A stretch of DNA of 34,968 nucleotides, taken from positions 1-34,968 of IMG/VR virus record IMGVR_UViG_3300027963_000017. One strand, written 5' to 3'. The number at the start of each line of letters is the position of its first letter. The first letter of the stretch is position 1. Made by a program: the position numbers and the translations under genes. Below, in pieces: positions 194-34,968 of the stretch. The notes below the pieces were generated by a model. It worked only from the letters and a program-made list of their open reading frames with translations, was not told the origin of the DNA and did no database searches. This stretch comes from a virus.

Positions 194-202
194 GTTAGGA
201 AA
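194..202 (-). promoter_or_regulatory. TTTCCTAAC leader element, copy 1
   Basis: On the minus strand this reads TTTCCTAAC and ends 18 bases before the ATG at 175. A small hairpin (CTGT-agt-ACAG) lies just upstream in the transcript. The same 9-mer recurs before at least five other left-arm genes. Function unknown. Confidence 0.5.
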
Positions 203-226: not shown

Positions 227-254
227 ATTATATAGATTAATACGATTATGTGAA
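227..254 (-). promoter_or_regulatory. Sigma-70-type promoter for the left arm
   Basis: On the minus strand: TTCACA (254-249), a 16-base spacer, then TATAAT (232-227). That is 5/6 and 6/6 of the consensus hexamers. Transcription would start near base 220, about 45 bases before the first left-arm ATG at 175. It is the best-placed promoter for the whole minus-strand early operon. Confidence 0.7.
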
Positions 255-8432: not shown

Positions 8433-9434
8433 ATGCCTATTGGTGGCGGTATCGTTCCAGCGACGGGTAGTACGCAATTTACCGAGTTGACATACGTCAC
8501 GCGGCGTGCGTTTATTCCAAAGCTAGTTGTTCAATTATATAACTCAACTCCGCTAATGGCGGCTTTGATTGCTAACTCGCAACAAGCCTCCGGTGGTGTT
8601 TCTTCAATAACCGTTCCCGTTCAGGGCGCACAGTTTGTAAACGCGCAATGGTCTGATTACTCTGGTTCGTTTAACCAGCCATCAGTCCAGCAAGGTGCTT
8701 ACAATGCTGAGTTTGACCTGAAGCTGATGATTGCTCCAGTACCGTTTCTCGGTATGGAAGGTGCAGTTCAGCAAGACGCTGCAATCATTCCTCTGATTGA
8801 AGCCCGTATGAACGATGCGACGAACGTGATGATGGATGCAATGGCAACAGCCTTGTACACCAACAGCACGAACACGCAGCAGTTCACAGGTTTGCCAGCA
8901 GCCGTTTCTGCTTCTGGTACCTACGGCAACATCAGTCGTTCGGCATATAGCTGGTGGCAGTCAAAGGCTTACTCAGCCGGTAGCGTGAACCCAACTCGTC
9001 AAAACATCCTGCAATACATTTCTGGTACTGTTAAAAACGGTGCTGAAGTGCCTTCGTTTGGTGTTTGCGGTTTTGGTACATGGACTCTGTTGGCACAAGA
9101 CTTTGTTGGTCAAGAGCAATACGTCATCACTCCGGGTTCCGGCTTTGACGGCGATTCTAATGGCCCACAAGCTGCGTTCCGCGCTTTGATGGTTGCTGGT
9201 GTACCTATTTATCCTGACCCCTACTGTCCAGAAGGTACGGTTTACTTCCTGAACACAAACTACCTCTCGCTCTATATCCATGAGCAAGGCTCGTTCGTGT
9301 TTACTGGTTTTGAATCGACCCTGCCAAACTGGCAGATTGGTTATGTTGGTGCTGTCTTGATGATTGCTGAGTTGGTTTCAACTAAGCCTAAGTCAATGTC
9401 AGTTGTGTCAGGTTACAACTCTCTAAGCATCTAA
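8433..9434 (+). CDS. Major capsid protein
   Basis: 333 residues, the usual size of an HK97-fold coat protein. It begins MPIGGGIVPATGSTQFTELT, has a helical stretch around N-D-A-T-N-V-M-M-D-A-M-A-T-A-L, and ends in beta-rich segments (FVFTGFESTLPNWQIGYVGA). Two ribosome-site-like sequences precede the ATG (AGGGGATAA and AGGAGATAACC), which suggests high expression. Position after the scaffold and before small beta-rich proteins supports the call. I see no inserted domain. Confidence 0.85.
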   Translation: MPIGGGIVPATGSTQFTELTYVTRRAFIPKLVVQLYNSTPLMAALIANSQQASGGVSSITVPVQGAQFVNAQWSDYSGSFNQPSVQQGAYNAEFDLKLMIAPVPFLGMEGAVQQDAAIIPLIEARMNDATNVMMDAMATALYTNSTNTQQFTGLPAAVSASGTYGNISRSAYSWWQSKAYSAGSVNPTRQNILQYISGTVKNGAEVPSFGVCGFGTWTLLAQDFVGQEQYVITPGSGFDGDSNGPQAAFRALMVAGVPIYPDPYCPEGTVYFLNTNYLSLYIHEQGSFVFTGFESTLPNWQIGYVGAVLMIAELVSTKPKSMSVVSGYNSLSI

Positions 9435-17511: not shown

Positions 17512-20500
17512 ATGGCAACTACATTTACGCCACCTACATTAGATGCGGCTTCAGTTAAAGCTGCTTTAGCAGCTCAATCAAAAAAAAGCACTAATACTGG
17601 TTCTGATTTTGCGTTTCATAATCTTAATTACGGCGATGGAAACAGCCTTCTTATTGGTTATTGGACCACACAAAATAAAGATAATTTACTTGCTAAGTAC
17701 AATATTCCGGGACTTAATCTTAAATCTGTAAACGCAAATATAGTAACTGGAGCGGCGTTATTTGGAATTAATAAATACGTTATTGATGGTTCTCGTGTTG
17801 AGTATTTAGGGGATATGAATAAAGCGGCTAAACAAGCCGGAATAGAAACAAAAGGGAAGTCAAAAAAACAAATTTACGAAGAATTAAACCAAAAAGGTAA
17901 GGGTTTGTATGCTGTTGTTTCCAGAGGGGGAAACACAAAAAATCATTTTACTTCTTTATATAGAGAAGAAGGGAATACATTAGTTCCTGTTAAAAATTTT
18001 GATGGAAGTTATGCTTCACAAGAATTTAATTCTGATTGGAAAAGAAAAACAGAAACTATTACTGAACAAATAGTTAATAGTCCAATTGTAAGACTTTATG
18101 CAGGTATTGTAACTGGAGGAATGAGTTTAACAACTCAACTTGCTACAAATGCTTTATTTGATATTGCTCAAGGAAAGTCATCTCAAGATGTTATTAGAGG
18201 CATTGTTGGCACAGTTGCCGCTAACGAAGTTGTTGGAGTTTTAAAAGGAATAAACCAACAAATTGCTGGAGTTGGTCCACAATTTTTTAAAGACGATGTT
18301 GTTTCAGCGTTAGCTAATGCTGAGAGACAAGCAGTATATGCTCTTGCAACTAATCAAGATGTTGGTACCGCTGCGTTAGCAGGTGCTGCTGGTGGAGGTG
18401 CTGCAAGCCTTTCTTCTTTGCTTACAGACGATAAGTTACTGCAACAAGCAGCAGGTGAATTTGTTAAAAGTCTTGCCTCTGGAACAAATTTACAAATAGC
18501 ATTAAATGATGCTTTATCTGGATACCTTTTAGATTCAGCTCTGGCAAAAGACGAGGCAGAAAAAGCAATAAAAAAACAAGTTGCTGCTGATATAGAAAAT
18601 ATTGAGTTTAGCAAGTTAAGTGATTCTCAAGCAGAATTTCTAAAAAATACGTATGTTCAATTAGTTGGCTCGGATATTGACGGAAGAACTGTAATGGCAG
18701 CAGAAATGTCTGCTGCACCATCAGAGGATTGGCCTAAAATTTTTCCTGAAGCTGATTTTAGATACGACCCAGCTGGAAAAGTAGGAAACGTATTTCAAGT
18801 AACCAATAATCAAGGCGAGGCAATTTTAGCTAGGGAGATTACAAATCCCGACGGCGTAAAATTTTATTTTTACTACAACAATGCAACTGGAGAAACAGGA
18901 GTTTCTCAATATGTATTGGGTTCTGGCAAAACTCTTGAAGAACAATTTTCTATCAATGTAGATGCACAAATTCCTGAAACTAAATTATTAAATTTAATTA
19001 ACTCTGGTGCCAATCTCAGCACAGGAAATGTAAGCGTTGGTGGAGGTAATAACGTAACTAGCAATATTGCAGACGTAATTATTAATAGCGGTAATGTTGT
19101 AAGTGACGTAAGCAATGTTGCAACTGGAAACGTAACTACAGGTAATGTAAGTACGGATAACGTTAGTACAGGTAACGTTAGTATCGATGGTGGCAATACA
19201 ACTAGCGATGTAATAAATCTAATTAACTCTGGTGCTAATGTAAGCACAGGTAATGTAAGTCTCGACAATGTAAGCACTAGCAATGTTAGTACAGGTAACG
19301 TGGCAACAGGAAACGTTAATGTAACTAGCGATGTAATAAATTTAATCAGCTCTGGCGGCAATGTAAGCAGTAACGTTGGAAACGTAACTATTGATAATGG
19401 CAACGTTGCAAGCAATATAAGTGACGTAGGAAACGTAACGCTTACAGGCGGCAATGTAGTAAGCAATGTTGGCAACGTAACTCTTGATGCCGGAAACGTA
19501 GTTAGTAATGTAGGCAACGTAACAGTAGAGGCAGGAAACACTACAAGCGATTTACTAAACTTAATTGCTACAGGAAGCAACGTAACCATTGATGCTGGTA
19601 ACGTGACTAGTAATGTTGCAAATGTAACTAGCAATGTTAGCGATGTAATTAGCGATACAGGTAATGTAACTACTGATGCAGGGAACGTAGTCATTACTGG
19701 CGGCAACGTAGCAGCCAATGTAACGAATACAACGAGCGATTTAATCAACTTAATTAATTCTGGTGCTAACGTAACTAACGATGTGGGTAATGTAACCCTC
19801 ACCGGAGGAAACGTAACAAGTAACGTAGTTGACGAGATTAGTAATGTTGGCAATGTAACTATTGCGGATGCAAACGTAACTAGCAACTTAGGTAATGTCA
19901 CTCTTACCACCGGTAATACTACAGCTGATTTAATTAACTTAATAAATTCAGGTAGCAATGTTAGTAATGTAGTTATTGATTCCGGCAACGTTACAAGCAA
20001 CGTAAGCAACGTAGCCAGCAACGTAGTTATTGATTCGGGGAACGTAACTAGCAATTTAGCGAATGTAGTTATCGACTCTGGAAATGTAGCCAGTAATTTA
20101 AGTAACGTAATTATTGATTCAGGTAACGTAGTTAGTAACTTGAGCAATGTAGTCATTACTGGCGGCAACACAACGGCTGACTTGATAAACCTAATTAATT
20201 CCGAAGGCAACGTAACACTTGATAGTGGAAATGTAGCCAGCAACGTGGTTATCGACTCTGGAAACGTAACTAGTAATTTGAGTAATGTGGTTATCGACTC
20301 AGGCAATGTGGCAGCCAATGTAAGCAACGTGGTTGTTGATTCTGGAAACGTAGCAAGCAATGTTAGTAATGTTGTTGTGTCTGGAGTTGATACTAATGTA
20401 GCAAACGTGACTACAGGGAACGTCAGCACAGGAAATGTCAACGTAACAAGTGATTTAATAAACTTGATTTATTCAGGCGGCAATGTAAGTACAGGAAATG

Positions 20501-21138
20501 CAGTTGTTTCTGACGGCGGCACTAACACAGAAAATGTAACTAGCAATGTGGTTGTGTCCGGCGGCGACATTAATACGACAAACTTAATTAGCAATGTAGT
20601 TGTATCTGATGGTGTAGCAAACGTATCAAACGTTAGCACCGGAAACGTAACTATTGATAGTGGAAACACAACAGCAGAATTAATAAACTTAATAAATTCA
20701 GGCGGTAATGTCAGCACAGGAAATGTAACTACAGATAACGTAATTACTGACAATGTGACTAGCAATGTAGTTGTCTCTGGTGGCGAAACAAACGTATCAA
20801 ATGTTAGTACAGGCAACGTAAGTACCGGAAATGTTTTGATTTCAGGCGGTGGAACTAACAACGCAAATGCTTCTGTTGAAAACGTAAGTAGCAATGTGTC
20901 TACGCCTAGAAACAATACTATTTTGTTGTCTTTGTTAAATCAGCCTATTAATAGAGAAATTTTACCGATGAGAACGCCTAGTCAGACTAATGCTTCTCCG
21001 GGTAGTGCTGCATTAGCGCAAGCGTTACGTATTGGAGATGCTGGTGCTCCGGTATTTGGTGGTGACAAAGAGAAAAGTAAGCGGTCTGGCTGGAACGTAG
21101 AATCGTTACGTTATATGGGTAATTCGGAGGATAAATGA
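17512..21138 (+). CDS. Giant Asn-Val repeat virion protein
   Basis: 1208 residues, the largest protein here. Residues 1-490 are a mixed domain with an Ala/Gly-rich helical, membrane-interaction-like stretch (TAALAGAAGGGAASLSSLL near 288). Residues about 491-1133 are degenerate repeats of G-N-V and S-N-V units, interrupted nine times by D-L-I-N-L-I-N-S-G. A conserved-looking C-terminus (SPGSAALAQALRIGDAGAPV) and the following ejection-type genes suggest a virion or ejected protein, or a very long fibre. It has no recognisable enzyme domain. The stop overlaps the next gene by four bases (ATGA). AGGATTTAG is a weakish ribosome site. Confidence 0.7.
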   Translation: MATTFTPPTLDAASVKAALAAQSKKSTNTGSDFAFHNLNYGDGNSLLIGYWTTQNKDNLLAKYNIPGLNLKSVNANIVTGAALFGINKYVIDGSRVEYLGDMNKAAKQAGIETKGKSKKQIYEELNQKGKGLYAVVSRGGNTKNHFTSLYREEGNTLVPVKNFDGSYASQEFNSDWKRKTETITEQIVNSPIVRLYAGIVTGGMSLTTQLATNALFDIAQGKSSQDVIRGIVGTVAANEVVGVLKGINQQIAGVGPQFFKDDVVSALANAERQAVYALATNQDVGTAALAGAAGGGAASLSSLLTDDKLLQQAAGEFVKSLASGTNLQIALNDALSGYLLDSALAKDEAEKAIKKQVAADIENIEFSKLSDSQAEFLKNTYVQLVGSDIDGRTVMAAEMSAAPSEDWPKIFPEADFRYDPAGKVGNVFQVTNNQGEAILAREITNPDGVKFYFYYNNATGETGVSQYVLGSGKTLEEQFSINVDAQIPETKLLNLINSGANLSTGNVSVGGGNNVTSNIADVIINSGNVVSDVSNVATGNVTTGNVSTDNVSTGNVSIDGGNTTSDVINLINSGANVSTGNVSLDNVSTSNVSTGNVATGNVNVTSDVINLISSGGNVSSNVGNVTIDNGNVASNISDVGNVTLTGGNVVSNVGNVTLDAGNVVSNVGNVTVEAGNTTSDLLNLIATGSNVTIDAGNVTSNVANVTSNVSDVISDTGNVTTDAGNVVITGGNVAANVTNTTSDLINLINSGANVTNDVGNVTLTGGNVTSNVVDEISNVGNVTIADANVTSNLGNVTLTTGNTTADLINLINSGSNVSNVVIDSGNVTSNVSNVASNVVIDSGNVTSNLANVVIDSGNVASNLSNVIIDSGNVVSNLSNVVITGGNTTADLINLINSEGNVTLDSGNVASNVVIDSGNVTSNLSNVVIDSGNVAANVSNVVVDSGNVASNVSNVVVSGVDTNVANVTTGNVSTGNVNVTSDLINLIYSGGNVSTGNAVVSDGGTNTENVTSNVVVSGGDINTTNLISNVVVSDGVANVSNVSTGNVTIDSGNTTAELINLINSGGNVSTGNVTTDNVITDNVTSNVVVSGGETNVSNVSTGNVSTGNVLISGGGTNNANASVENVSSNVSTPRNNTILLSLLNQPINREILPMRTPSQTNASPGSAALAQALRIGDAGAPVFGGDKEKSKRSGWNVESLRYMGNSEDK
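18985..20910 (+). repeat. Degenerate in-frame Asn-Val repeat array
   Basis: About 1.9 kb encoding short units of five to nine residues centred on Asn-Val (G-N-V-x-S-N-V). Nine D-L-I-N-L-I-N-S-G markers occur near 18991, 19215, 19337, 19557, 19747, 19935, 20187, 20459 and 20685, with spacings from about 120 to 270 bases. The Asn-Val pair is written with at least six codon combinations (AACGTA, AATGTA, AACGTT, AATGTT, AACGTG, AATGTG), so the protein pattern is kept while the DNA has diverged. Confidence 0.85.
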
Positions 21139-31939: not shown

Positions 31940-32839
31940 TTATTTAAGTAAGAAGCGGCGAGAACCTGCCGTTTTCGCGACAAACTTCGCGTAAATGTCG
32001 GGGTGTTGGGCTTGGAATAACTTAGCGTCGAATCGTTCGCTGCCTTTGCTGTTTTTCCATGTCGCGAGTATTTTTCCATCGAAAGATACTAATTCAGAAC
32101 TCCATTGCATGTGGTTTTGCAAAGCTGTTAATAAGTGTTCTTCCTTTTCTTCTAGCCGCTTGATTTCTTCTTTAACGAACTTCAATGCTTCGGCTGCTTT
32201 CTCAATGGGCAGAGGGGCGATTACAGACGTTCCAGCGTCTTGGGCATAGATGAGCTTGGTCTGGTCGGTATCTTCGGCTTCTAGGGGGGTTTTAGTGGCT
32301 ACAGCACCCCAAAATTTAGCCATGTCTTTGATTAGTTCCTCTTTTTGAGCTTCCATAATTGAAAATTCAAATATTTCAAAGTTTTGGCCTCCGAACAAGA
32401 CGGCGAGTACAATTTTTTGTACATTATGACAAGCCGCCTCATGGATAAGCTGCGCCATGTCCGCAGCCGGAATAATCCCTGATTCCGCATCGAACTTATT
32501 GCGTACCGCCGCATTGTAGTTTTTAGCTTCAACCAGCGTTTGACCGTCCGCAGAGATGAAATCGAAATGGCTACGTAACCATCCTTCTTTGGAGTGTGTA
32601 AGCGCATAGTCTGCATCCTTTAATTCAATCTTCAATTTGTCTTGGGCTAAACGTCCGATTAGCGGCTGCATAACGTGACCCATTTGAACAGCTTCAACAT
32701 TAGATAAGTCTGGACGCTCTTTCAGGCCCAATTTCTCAAGTACAGCTTCGTTACCTTTGCCGTTTGCTGCTTTCCTGCTGTCACCAGACCACCACGCAGA
32801 ATTACGTATCTCTGGTGCGAAATCATCTTGGTTATTCAT
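31940..32839 (-). CDS. YqaJ-type viral exonuclease
   Basis: 299 residues. The N-terminal half is the lambda-exonuclease/YqaJ fold of the PD-(D/E)XK superfamily: M-G-H-V-M-Q-P-L-I (the usual acidic residue is Gln58 here), S-H-F-D-F-I (Asp93) and L-V-E-A-K-N-Y (Glu104, Lys106). The C-terminus is a helical, charged extension around 215-250. It digests a strand of duplex ends to give the single strand used by the RecT-like protein. The start lies within the end of the previous ORF (8-base overlap), with a TTTCCTAAC element 16 bases upstream. Confidence 0.8.
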   Translation of the reverse strand: MNNQDDFAPEIRNSAWWSGDSRKAANGKGNEAVLEKLGLKERPDLSNVEAVQMGHVMQPLIGRLAQDKLKIELKDADYALTHSKEGWLRSHFDFISADGQTLVEAKNYNAAVRNKFDAESGIIPAADMAQLIHEAACHNVQKIVLAVLFGGQNFEIFEFSIMEAQKEELIKDMAKFWGAVATKTPLEAEDTDQTKLIYAQDAGTSVIAPLPIEKAAEALKFVKEEIKRLEEKEEHLLTALQNHMQWSSELVSFDGKILATWKNSKGSERFDAKLFQAQHPDIYAKFVAKTAGSRRFLLK

Positions 32840-33071
32840 TGTTTGTCCTCACAAGGTTAGGAAATTTAACTTCTGGAAACAACTCTCTAATGTCATAGAT
32901 GACGGGTTCTGCTGCTTCAAATAACAGTCCCTTAGTCGTACAGGCGTAAGAATCTAGGCGCATCAAGGCGCATAGTTCAGACTTGGGATTGCCTTCAACC
33001 AGGTCAATGCCGTTGGAAGGGTGATAGCAGTTACGTGATTTATAGTGCTTGCAGTCTATGCAAATCTTCAT
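32832..33071 (-). CDS. Cys-rich small protein, zinc-binding type
   Basis: 79 residues. C-I-D-C-K-H-Y (3-9), C-Y-H-P (15-18) and two later Cys (C-A-L-M; Y-A-C-T) give a likely zinc site. This build (MKICxxCKHYxxxxCYHP) is common in phage early regions, with no known function. The ribosome site AAAGGGGTAATC and a TTTCCTAAC element precede the ATG. Its last codons K-F-P-N-L are themselves the TTTCCTAAC element of the next gene. Confidence 0.75.
   Translation of the reverse strand: MKICIDCKHYKSRNCYHPSNGIDLVEGNPKSELCALMRLDSYACTTKGLLFEAAEPVIYDIRELFPEVKFPNLVRTNNE
32856..32864 (-). promoter_or_regulatory. TTTCCTAAC leader element, before the exonuclease
   Basis: TTTCCTAAC on the minus strand, 16 bases before the ATG at 32839. 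It lies inside the coding end of the upstream gene (as F-P-N), which shows the element is kept at the nucleotide level even where it is also read as protein. Confidence 0.5.
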
Positions 33072-33088
33072 GATTACCCCTTTGTGGT

Positions 33089-33097
33089 GTTAGGAAA
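33089..33097 (-). promoter_or_regulatory. TTTCCTAAC leader element, before the Cys-rich gene
   Basis: TTTCCTAAC on the minus strand, 17 bases before the ATG at 33071. The TAA inside it is also the stop of the upstream ORF (33090). Confidence 0.5.
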
Positions 33098-33290
33098 TAA
33101 GACTATATACATTATCTGGATTAGGTGCAATATGTTTGTTTACCTCTCTTTCTTTGGGCAACACAAGGTCAACGTATAGGGATGATGATGAGTCATGCCG
33201 ATACTTCAGCCGTTGGCTGTCCACATTAGTAATGTGTTCTGCTGCTTTATTTATCGGGTCGTGTTTCCCGTCTCGCCAGACGTCTCTCAT
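33090..33290 (-). CDS. Small protein of unknown function
   Basis: 66 residues from the ATG at 33290; a GTG at 33302 adds four. It begins MRDVWRDGKHDPINKAAEHI, a polar sequence with a Ser run (DSSSSLYVDL) and C-terminal N-P-D-N-V-Y-S-L-I-S. Ribosome sites before both starts are poor. It lies directly downstream of a structured region and terminator. Kept as a moderate-confidence gene because it fills the space and reads like a protein. Confidence 0.45.
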   Translation of the reverse strand: MRDVWRDGKHDPINKAAEHITNVDSQRLKYRHDSSSSLYVDLVLPKEREVNKHIAPNPDNVYSLIS

Positions 33291-33302
33291 CAGCCTATTC
33301 AC

Positions 33303-33430
33303 CCGTTTATCGCTTGGGGCAGAACCCTCGCGTACCCGTTCCCCTTGGTCAAGGTAAACCGCTATTGTCCCGCGCTGGCACGGTCATGCCACTTGCTATC
33401 GTGCGGGGTACGGTAAACGCTTTGGGCAAT
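33303..33430 (-). promoter_or_regulatory. Leader or control segment with palindromes and direct repeats
   Basis: No gene. It contains CCTTGGTCAAGG (33343-33354, 5-base arms), TGGCA-n6-TGCCA (33376-33391), and GGTAAAC twice (33353-33359 and 33412-33418), each near a GCTAT-like sequence. Such short palindromes look like operator sites for the downstream gene, or iteron-like DNA sites. A 12-codon ORF (MTVPARDNSGLP) starts at 33387 but has weak support. Confidence 0.4.
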
Positions 33431-33507
33431 AAAAAAAGCCAGTTACAGCTGAGTCCGGTGAAGGTTCCCACAGATGCGCGGGAGACAGACTCATGTGTAA
33501 CTGGCTT
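33431..33507 (-). terminator. Large structured terminator or small RNA 3' end
   Basis: Perfect 12-bp arms AAGCCAGTTACA (33436-33447) and TGTAACTGGCTT (33496-33507) enclose a second 5-bp stem GAGTC (33451-33455)/GACTC (33488-33492) and a third 4-bp stem TCCC (33466-33469)/GGGA (33480-33483). The minus strand ends the stem with seven T (33437-33431), so it terminates there. Three stacked stems make a bigger structure than an ordinary terminator. Confidence 0.8.
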
Positions 33508-33564
33508 CTATTTATCGACCTTCACGTCAACAGGCGTAAATCTACGCGCGCGAGGATGCTTTTG

Positions 33565-33678
33565 TCAATCCCTCGGCGTAAGAAATGTCCATAAAAACCA
33601 CGCGCAGACCGCTAAAAGCATAAATCCTGCACCCATAAATATCCCCCCGACTAAGATTGTGAATAAACTGGCAAGCAT
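33565..33678 (-). CDS. 37-residue membrane peptide
   Basis: ATG at 33678 overlaps the previous stop (TAATG), with AAGG six bases upstream; TGA at 33567-33565. The sequence starts MLASLFTILVGGIFMGAGFM and has one membrane helix of about 30 residues with a W-F-L-W end and a short basic/acidic tail (TPRD). It is too short for routine ORF thresholds. It may insert in the host inner membrane and modify host physiology or exclusion; this is inference. An alternative frame at 33542-33781 is less well placed. Confidence 0.6.
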   Translation of the reverse strand: MLASLFTILVGGIFMGAGFMLLAVCAWFLWTFLTPRD

Positions 33679-33911
33679 TATTTGCCTTGCTCTGCTTTAA
33701 TTTCAGCAATAGGACGCCACCCGAATCGACGCCAAGTGCGCGTGACATCGGTACTATTTGATGGAATCCATTCTCGACCATCTAAAAGCCCCACAGAGGG
33801 GCTAACAGAGGACGCGAGCAGCTCAACGTCTCGAATAGTCTCTAATCGCTTAAAAACCCTATTCTGAGTCTCTAGTTCAATATCAATCATTAAGTTTTTA
33901 AGTTTGCCCAT
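33678..33911 (-). CDS. Small early protein
   Basis: 77 residues from the ATG at 33911 that follows TTTTGGGGATAACT; a start 12 bases earlier would lie inside that ribosome site. It begins MGKLKNLMIDIELETQNRVF with a helical N-terminal half and a C-terminal W-I-P-S-N-S-T-D-V-T-R-T-W-R-R-F segment. Unknown family. Its stop overlaps the 37-residue membrane peptide start. Confidence 0.65.
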   Translation of the reverse strand: MGKLKNLMIDIELETQNRVFKRLETIRDVELLASSVSPSVGLLDGREWIPSNSTDVTRTWRRFGWRPIAEIKAEQGK

Positions 33912-33926
33912 AGTTATCCCCAAAAG

Positions 33927-34013
33927 TTAGAAAGAAAGCAAAAGAACAAGAAAGCCCCATACAACTAGAAAGCCGATAAGGCCAGCAACGTATTCAAAGA
34001 GTGATTCAGGCAT
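33927..34013 (-). CDS. 28-residue membrane peptide
   Basis: ATG at 34013 comes two bases after the stop of the upstream gene (34016) and TAA is at 33929-33927, ten bases before the next ribosome site. It begins MPESLFEYVAGLIGFLVVWG and is one hydrophobic helix ending LLLSF. The tight fit between two genes argues for a real tiny gene. The ribosome site is weak (AAAG), so translation may be coupled to the gene before. Confidence 0.5.
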   Translation of the reverse strand: MPESLFEYVAGLIGFLVVWGFLVLLLSF

Positions 34014-34015
34014 GG

Positions 34016-34267
34016 TTACACTTTGGAATGGTCAAAGCAAAACACATAACCTTTGCCGTCGGCAGAATCCCCGAACCGCATATTGTCTAAATTCCAGTCT
34101 AATTTGTGTTTCTCAATGAGTGCTTTTACGGCTTGAAAGTGTGCTTGCTCGTATGATTCGGCGTATGGATAAGCAATAGTTGCTTCAAAACCACTTGATG
34201 TGAAAGCCTTGATACGAGTGCCGCGAGTGTTAGTGACAGGCAAGCATTTAGTGTGAATTGCAATCAT
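34016..34267 (-). CDS. Small conserved phage protein
   Basis: 83 residues starting MIAIHTKCLPVTNTRGTRIK, then K-A-F-T-S-S-G-F and A-T-I-A-Y-P-Y-A, and G-Y-V-F-C-F-D-H near the end. From memory this small mixed alpha/beta protein recurs in phages, with no known role. The ribosome site AAGGGGTTTACT and a TTTCCTAAC element precede it. Confidence 0.7.
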   Translation of the reverse strand: MIAIHTKCLPVTNTRGTRIKAFTSSGFEATIAYPYAESYEQAHFQAVKALIEKHKLDWNLDNMRFGDSADGKGYVFCFDHSKV

Positions 34268-34283
34268 AGTAAACCCCTTAAAT

Positions 34284-34292
34284 GTTAGGAAA
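34284..34292 (-). promoter_or_regulatory. TTTCCTAAC leader element, before the 83-residue gene
   Basis: TTTCCTAAC on the minus strand, 16 bases before the ATG at 34267. An ATTGA-n7-TCAAT hairpin overlapping the upstream stop lies at its 5' side. Confidence 0.5.
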
Positions 34293-34296
34293 TTGA

Positions 34297-34524
34297 TTAA
34301 GACTCAATAGCGCGTTGGATGGTATCTTTTTCAAGAAACCCGCCATGAATTACGGAATAACGACCAATACCTGCCGAATATTTCAAAACCTTGCAATTGC
34401 GGTAAACCTTAAAAACCTTCATTGCTTGTTCTTGGTTGCAAGATGCAATTTGCTGGACTGTCTCAATGAAATTGTTTTGACCATTGAGCATACGTATTGA
34501 CATATCTTTGATTGATTGACGCAT
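34297..34524 (-). CDS. Small early protein
   Basis: 75 residues from the ATG at 34524, chosen because TCGGAGTTAATC precedes it; a frame start at 34584 overlaps the previous gene. It begins MRQSIKDMSIRMLNGQNNFI and reads as helices (ETVQQIASCNQEQAMKVFKV) then a beta-type end (K-Y-S-A-G-I-G-R-Y-S-V-I-H-G-G-F). Unknown function, conserved-looking. Confidence 0.7.
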   Translation of the reverse strand: MRQSIKDMSIRMLNGQNNFIETVQQIASCNQEQAMKVFKVYRNCKVLKYSAGIGRYSVIHGGFLEKDTIQRAIES

Positions 34525-34539
34525 GATTAACTCCGAAAG

Positions 34540-34567
34540 GTTAGGAAAGTGCCGGATACGCTCCGGC
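34540..34567 (-). promoter_or_regulatory. Hairpin plus TTTCCTAAC leader module
   Basis: On the minus strand a 6-bp hairpin GCCGGA-gcgta-TCCGGC (34567-34551) is followed after two bases by TTTCCTAAC (34548-34540), and 15 bases later by the ATG at 34524. It has the same layout as 34785-34821, with a different stem sequence, so the structure and not the stem sequence is shared. Confidence 0.55.
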
Positions 34568-34580
34568 TGGCGGTTTAATA

Positions 34581-34772
34581 TCAAATTGCGATAATTGGTT
34601 GACTATCGGTGCAAATGCAAACGATACGCTCAAATTTTGGTGCATTTTTTAATGAATGCACAGTTACATTTCGGCCTGTGTGTGTATAGCTTTCAACGCG
34701 CATTTGTTTGCCGTGAACATTGATTATTTGACCGATTTTGTAATCAGATTTTGGAATAAAAGCAAATTTCAT
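34581..34772 (-). CDS. Small early protein, beta-rich
   Basis: 63 residues starting MKFAFIPKSDYKIGQIINVH and ending I-V-C-I-C-T-D-S-Q-P-I-I-A-I. Five short strands suggest a small barrel-like domain. The ribosome site AAGGGGCTTACC and two TTTCCTAAC elements precede the ATG. Function unknown. Confidence 0.7.
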   Translation of the reverse strand: MKFAFIPKSDYKIGQIINVHGKQMRVESYTHTGRNVTVHSLKNAPKFERIVCICTDSQPIIAI

Positions 34773-34784
34773 GGTAAGCCCCTT

Positions 34785-34821
34785 GTTAGGAAAAGGTTAG
34801 GAAAGCCAGATAAGCTCTGGC
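34785..34821 (-). promoter_or_regulatory. Hairpin plus tandem TTTCCTAAC leader module
   Basis: On the minus strand a 6-bp hairpin GCCAGA-gctta-TCTGGC (34821-34805) runs directly into TTTCCTAAC (34804-34796), repeated 11 bases later (34793-34785), 12 bases before the ATG at 34772. It is the only place with two copies of the 9-mer. Confidence 0.55.
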
Positions 34822-34843: not shown

Positions 34844-34968
34844 TTATTTAGCTTTTTTAGTTATTTTGTTTAAATAAGCAATCCTATGTTTTAAAACTGC
34901 TTTTGCAATTTGACCCATGTTTCCTTCCATTGCTGGCATGTCATACAACATATTTTTAAAACTAGTGC
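34844..34968 (-). CDS. Small protein gene spanning the circular join (3' part)
   Basis: The 3' portion of the 65-residue gene that starts at base 175 on the minus strand. Bases 34867-34968 duplicate 1-102, and 34844-34866 are the unique last codons and stop. The frame stays open across the junction, which supports circularity. The stop is followed after 22 bases by a 6-bp hairpin and two TTTCCTAAC elements that precede the next gene. Confidence 0.75.
   Translation of the reverse strand, partial: TSFKNMLYDMPAMEGNMGQIAKAVLKHRIAYLNKITKKAK
34867..34968. repeat. Terminal direct repeat, right copy
   Basis: Exact second copy of bases 1-102. Merging the two copies gives a circular map of 34866 bases and restores a complete 65-residue minus-strand ORF, which is the main reason to read the window as a whole phage genome. 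Confidence 0.95.

Follow-up and report, generated by a model that had tools for sequence, protein, structure and literature searches.

Start-associated repeats of actinophages have been noted for years without a mechanism. The start-associated sequence (SAS) and its extended form (ESAS) occur in cluster K mycobacteriophages and cluster EF Microbacterium phages; their function is given as unknown, with a role in translation suggested (PMC3203893, PMC7302621). As described there, the SAS is 13 bp long, contains the Shine-Dalgarno site (SD; AGGAG) and lies 3-7 bp before the start codon; about half of the cluster K sites have an inverted repeat just upstream, and the ESAS inverted repeat is 17 bp long, has a sequence consensus and gave the authors little support for RNA pairing (PMC3203893, PMC7302621). 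We analysed a window of 34,968 nt, which is the entire 34.9-kb virus record IMGVR_UViG_3300027963_000017 of IMG/VR, in which a 9-nt element, TTTCCTAAC, recurs ahead of the genes of an early, leftward operon. Like the SAS and ESAS, it is a short asymmetric repeat in one orientation at the starts of many unrelated non-structural genes, kept across a phage group. However, the element is 7-9 nt long (core WTTCCTAAH) and stands upstream of a separate SD, the core end being 15-19 nt from the start codon in 164 of 250 nonredundant contexts. Its hairpins also differ from the ESAS repeat, since 75 distinct perfect hairpins were found, free in sequence, kept in structure and placed at the predicted mRNA 5' end. 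As far as these descriptions go, SAS/ESAS is the nearest known kind and differs in sequence, position and hairpin logic. Because the layout differs in the defining points tested, the element was not filed as an SAS but set among the start-associated phage repeats as a variant.

Other Microbacterium phages carry repeats of 22-30 bp (cluster EC) or inverted repeats of 14-22 bp (cluster EG) before gene starts; the EG repeats are also given as 18-bp inverted repeats, and EC phages are said to encode a sigma factor (PMC7302621). These repeats lie upstream of starts at a similar distance. However, their sequences are unrelated to the present element, and the scan of 20 window proteins named no sigma factor, repressor, integrase or RNA polymerase. 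The PeSL cassettes of T4-type phages, described under a title on promoter-terminator motifs, place an early promoter and a stem-loop before shuffled small early genes. Going by the text that cites them, the likeness lies in a promoter and stem-loop before early genes, and a sigma-70-like promoter was called in 49 of the 250 contexts here. By contrast, the present hairpins are free of a U-run, begin where the downstream message is predicted to start (+1) and lead into a fixed heptamer, and many copies have no called promoter. A literature search on TTTCCTAAC gave no title on phage leaders among the matches listed, and the papers searched held no report of the motif; TTCCTAAC sought together with phage ribosome-binding sites had no match either, and Rfam covariance models gave no match on the window up to E 1. 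We favour the reading, which we rate as about equally likely to be right or wrong, that the element is a reusable RNA 5'-leader module of early genes that would act at translation initiation and be recognised in trans.

Distribution and conservation of the element

The window holds seven exact copies of TTTCCTAAC, every one of them on the minus strand (Table 1), compared with a mean of 0.40 and a largest count of 2 in 100 dinucleotide shuffles. The strand that encodes the right-arm (structural) genes had none. The initial annotation had placed the copies before minus-strand start codons and had seen none at right-arm starts, and both points stand. Its count of seven copies in the span 32856-34821 plus one at 194-202 does not: the span holds six, as does its own list, and the copy at 194-202 is the seventh. 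The distance of 12-18 nt that it gave to minus-strand start codons holds for the copies generally, the outer copy of the doublet being 23 nt away. It was also right that one copy lies within coding sequence (the 32832-33071 gene) and that another carries the stop codon of the 33302-33090 frame. An exact 102-bp terminal repeat (1-102 = 34867-34968) shows that the record is circular or terminally redundant; the copy at 194-202 therefore heads the same leftward operon. Products of this operon include a RecE-like exonuclease, a RecT-like annealing protein, a single-strand binding protein, RusA and a DNA methyltransferase.

Table 1. Element copies and associated features of the early region, in window coordinates.
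Feature	Position	Strand	Remark
First gene of leftward operon	ATG 175-173, wraps record end to 34844	minus	led by element copy 194..202
Element copy 1	194..202	minus	leader of first leftward-operon gene
Sigma-70-like early promoter TTCACA-N16-TATAAT	227..254	minus	24 nt before first element; 11/12 consensus positions
RecE-like exonuclease gene	31940..32839	minus	phrog_434, E 1.5e-40; element-led; lineage probe
Element copy	32856..32864	minus	inside coding sequence (TTT CCT AAC) and in leader of RecE-like exonuclease gene
Element copy	33089..33097	minus	precedes 32832-33071 gene; contains stop codon of 33302-33090 frame
Weak sigma-70-like promoter TTGCAC-N17-TATAGT	33102..33130	minus	predicted start at or beside element; not listed by promoter scan
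Promoter-like TTGACA-N18-TAGATT	33539-33568	minus	ahead of 33431-33531 RNA
Degenerate copy TTTCTAAC	33926..33933	minus	one base short; precedes SD and ATG of 33678-33911 gene
Element copy	34284..34292	minus	precedes 34016-34267 gene
Element copy	34540..34548	minus	precedes gene with start at 34524
Hairpin GCCGGA-GCGTA-TCCGGC	34551..34567	minus	ends 2 nt before element; not terminator-like in scan
Element copy, inner half of doublet	34785..34793	minus	12 nt from ATG of 34581-34772 gene
Element copy, outer half of doublet	34796..34804	minus	
Hairpin GCCAGA-GCTTA-TCTGGC	34805..34821	minus	ends directly before element; not terminator-like in scan

Relatives were collected by searching IMG/VR with the RecE protein. 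The best 80 of 446 relatives (604 kb) contained 173 sense and 6 antisense copies of TTTCCTAAC, showing that the element is conserved. Two further relative searches (best 80 of 369 and best 80 of 378) widened the set. Fourteen loci that lacked homologues of window proteins (two of them short fragments of a contig present elsewhere in the set) were left out of the sets of 128, 250 and 1998 contexts used below; sites within 70-80 nt of locus ends were left out of the first two, and the scrambled-control loci L177-L195 plus L088 and L090 from the 250-context set onward. A start codon lay 5-33 nt downstream in 321 of 353 sites and in 121 of the 128 distinct contexts, and the start was ATG in 222 of the 250. 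Doublets with cores 10-11 nt apart accounted for 8 spacings in the latter set. For the window and seven long relatives (32-36 kb) combined, all 51 of the start-linked copies fell on the early strand.

A gapped-pattern search of IMG/VR (element, AAGGGG and ATG) gave 96 matches compared with 19 for a scrambled element. Homologues of window proteins were present in 72 of the 86 newly fetched stretches (14 without), indicating that the element belongs to the phage lineage. A host-wide motif was rejected, as matches outside the lineage occurred only at the level of the scrambled control. The element is conserved across a broad lineage of uncultured freshwater phages; lineage-wide conservation, linkage to starts and restriction to the early strand strongly support the earlier proposal of a phage-specific early-operon signal.

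The strict core was found upstream of the SD and at early genes only. In 1998 nonredundant contexts with an SD and a start codon, TTTCCTAAC occurred 105 times and its reverse complement 0 times. Changes were tolerated only at the two ends, with A 33, C 12 and G 8 times as the first base and A 19 and T 15 times as the last, and each substitution at positions 2-8 occurred 0-6 times. Because the 250 contexts were selected for the core TCCTAA, their core columns carry no evidential weight, and the count in the 1998 contexts is the unbiased test. The shortened form TTTCTAAC was not enriched there (3 occurrences versus 3 in the reverse-complement control).

Within the gene that precedes RecE, the element forms the codons TTT CCT AAC. 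From 35 homologous frames we obtained 26 distinct tails with this tripeptide, one of which begins with CTT. Proline was encoded by CCT in all 26 tails versus 51 of 143 cases elsewhere in the same frames, and asparagine by AAC in 26 of 26 versus 39 of 75. The element is under nucleotide-level selection inside coding sequence and is fixed at synonymous positions. This fixation bears on the idea that the repeat is a recombination joint, spreading with early gene cassettes and having no role in expression. Members of 106 protein clusters are preceded by the element, and in different phages (L008, L012) one and the same hairpin with its element leads different genes, as such a joint would predict. 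However, the start-codon spacing, the tight core beside free flanks and free stem sequence, and the synonymous fixation make a recombination joint highly implausible.

Hairpins and promoters ahead of the element

In 48 of the 128 distinct contexts a perfect stem (5 bp or longer) ended 0-3 nt before the element; shuffled upstream sequence gave 4.3 such contexts on average and 13 at most. Anchors shifted by at least 30 nt gave counts of 1-9, and anchors 6-20 nt upstream gave 11-23, a rise that the hairpin itself and the doublets would produce. The 250 contexts held 88 hairpins, 75 of them distinct, and the gap to the element was 0-1 nt in 70 of the 88. The commonest loop was a pentaloop, with G favoured at the first place and U at the fourth and fifth. 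The structure of the hairpin is kept and its stem sequence is free. The two window hairpins had been described as unrelated; their 6-bp stems and 5-nt loops were as reported, but a single compensated pair and a single loop base are all that separates the two. A role as terminators was rejected, since neither was called by the scan and hairpins at the predicted +1 of promoter-bearing leaders cannot end the upstream gene. A pseudoknot of the hairpin loop with the element was also rejected because the loops were too varied.

The 49 promoter calls compared with a mean of 9.4 and a maximum of 17 in shuffles. In 17 of the 18 contexts with both a promoter and a hairpin, the hairpin began 5-9 nt after the -10 box, which is the predicted transcription start, indicating that it belongs to the leader of the downstream gene. 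This position had been missed in the initial annotation. When a promoter was called with no hairpin (n = 31), the element itself lay 9-10 nt past the -10 box in 7 contexts and 18-31 nt past it in most others. At the place corresponding to 33102..33130, promoters of relatives had TTGACA or TTGAAC.

A hairpin at the predicted +1 and, in most cases, flush with the element would also suit a function in mRNA 5'-end stability or processing. The hairpin would cap the transcript, the heptamer would be an endonuclease site or a shield, and internal copies would yield protected monocistronic early mRNAs. This is the main rival of the translation reading, but we consider it unlikely: the RNase E consensus requires a purine at a position just upstream of the core where the base preferences showed none, and a stability element needs no fixed distance to the start codon.

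L5-type stoperators are repressor-bound asymmetric DNA sites of a temperate phage, present in a single orientation and repeated along an operon. In nut and rRNA antiterminators, boxA (GCUCUUUA), bound by NusB-S10, lies adjacent to the boxB hairpin. The element might accordingly be a transcription-level signal, read as DNA or nascent RNA, either a stoperator-like repressor site or a nut-like antitermination site made of a hairpin and a linear box; its asymmetry, single orientation and repetition along one operon resemble the former, and the order of hairpin then box the latter. However, the core UUCCUAA does not match boxA, so that only the layout is alike. The narrow start-codon spacing, the free-sequence hairpins at predicted 5' ends, the lack of a terminator call at the two window hairpins and the protein scan described above, which named none of the four regulators, also oppose a transcription signal, which we regard as improbable. 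An RNA-level leader is favoured over a DNA regulator site because of the single orientation, narrow start spacing, diverse abutting hairpins and absence of structural-gene copies. Among the three functions first offered for the element, the translation leader thus gains, the DNA regulator site loses ground, and RNA processing remains a rival.

Translation reading and possible reader

A shared RNA signal probably marks the early messages for translation control. In the proposed module, the mRNA 5' end or a small stem-loop would be followed after 0-1 nt by single-stranded (A)WUUCCUAAH, a short spacer, the SD and AUG, with TTTCCTAAC as the sequence-specific part. The hairpin, or the 5' end itself, would shield the heptamer from upstream RNA. 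The heptamer, beside the 30S landing site, would be read in trans, the likeliest reader being an RNA-binding factor that the phage encodes, and this recognition would favour or time early-gene translation. On this evidence the molecule read would be RNA rather than DNA, and the step affected would be translation initiation.

Several observations weigh against this reading. In 131 of the 250 contexts both a called promoter and a perfect 5-bp hairpin were missing. Some distant clades vary the element or largely lack it, the MW202753 clade having GTCCTAAC, and the IMG/VR relatives are all metagenomic and, although thinned, are not independent. The phage trans factor is putative. No complementarity to rRNA was found: none of the 29 16S stretches (some partial) contained GTTAGGAAA or TTAGGAA, and neither did the 16S, 23S and 5S rRNA of E. 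coli. The 16S stretches came from the order of the sole bacterial metagenome-assembled genome with a RecE relative, genes being obtained for 29 of 60 genomes, and this order may not be that of the host. Pairing with 16S helix 17 was rejected for these hosts, as TTTTGTTAGGAAAGAA occurred in 0 of 300 genomes of the order (a loose control matched 1 of 60) and TTAGGAA in none of the 29 stretches. The leader of T7 gene 10 has a 5' stem-loop, the epsilon enhancer and an SD, and epsilon has been proposed to pair with 16S rRNA. The order of 5' hairpin, linear segment and SD is alike; by contrast, the complement of the present element was absent from the 16S sequences checked.

Predicted folding also counts against a freely readable element, since native leaders paired it with the SD (mean P 0.385 over the 250 contexts), and minimum free energy folds of six window leaders paired it with the SD in five and with the SD flank in one. 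The element could then be a cis anti-SD switch in which UUUCCU pairs with and sequesters the SD behind it. However, permuted elements paired almost equally (0.334), and such a switch would leave the invariant AA of the core unpaired. SD usage is opposed to it as well: SDs of the AGGA type followed the element in 14 of 217 genes versus 309 of 977 others, and AGGGG in 116 of 217 versus 204 of 977, the comparison set of 977 including spurious frames. AGGA is the best complement of the element and is rare behind it, indicating that pairing with the SD is avoided. A cis switch, plausible by folding, is on balance very improbable.

The strict core, free stem, avoidance of internal pairing and lineage restriction argue for recognition of the translation leader in trans, by a phage factor more likely than one of the host, and an element bound to its lineage fits a phage-borne rather than a host factor. 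It is conceivable, though doubtful, that this freshwater lineage has a translation-initiation factor or RNA-binding regulator of its own with which the capped-hairpin UUCCUAA leader is read, so that the early genes would form a translational regulon set by a leader code and not by promoters. A weak lead to a candidate trans factor is the small protein family at 33678-33911 (minus), whose motif TDVTxTWRRFGWxP is conserved across the lineage. It was present in 8 of 8 element-rich long genomes (window included) and in 1 of 4 element-poor or variant genomes, there at 39% identity; the window protein had no Pfam or PHROG match at E 0.1. If a phage factor does read the leader, this would be a new way of switching a whole gene class at translation. 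The case is cleaner than that of the actinophage repeats, with a 7-nt core, hundreds of natural instances, a freely varying structural partner and a promoter-proximal hairpin at the predicted +1, and the present leaders make it testable which reader and which step are involved.

Neighbouring features

A structured RNA lies between element-led genes at 33431-33531 (minus) and ends in a long stem and a T run. Eleven aligned orthologues supported 28 pairs including a pseudoknot helix, in which 77 of 77 cells were paired and 5 of 7 pairs had changed on both sides. Overall, 99.0% of 307 cells paired versus 87.0% in shuffles, and the fold z was -5.9. No Rfam family reached its gathering score, and the locus is probably a new phage small RNA. 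The interval 33098-33430 (minus), which separates this RNA from the promoter-like sequence at 33102-33130, is without a clear gene and is conserved at about 75-93% identity in several relatives.

A (TA)n tract at about 329-348, between the divergent arms and near the early promoter, is possibly an origin or melting region. In locus L089, a 43-aa frame (8773-8904; MW202753.1 26737-26868) is annotated as an RNA polymerase sigma factor and is too short for trust. A degenerate array of 15-48 bp repeats (AACGTAAC and relatives) occupies 19129-20603 within a 1208-aa frame (17512-21138), and a 511-aa open frame lies on the opposite strand.

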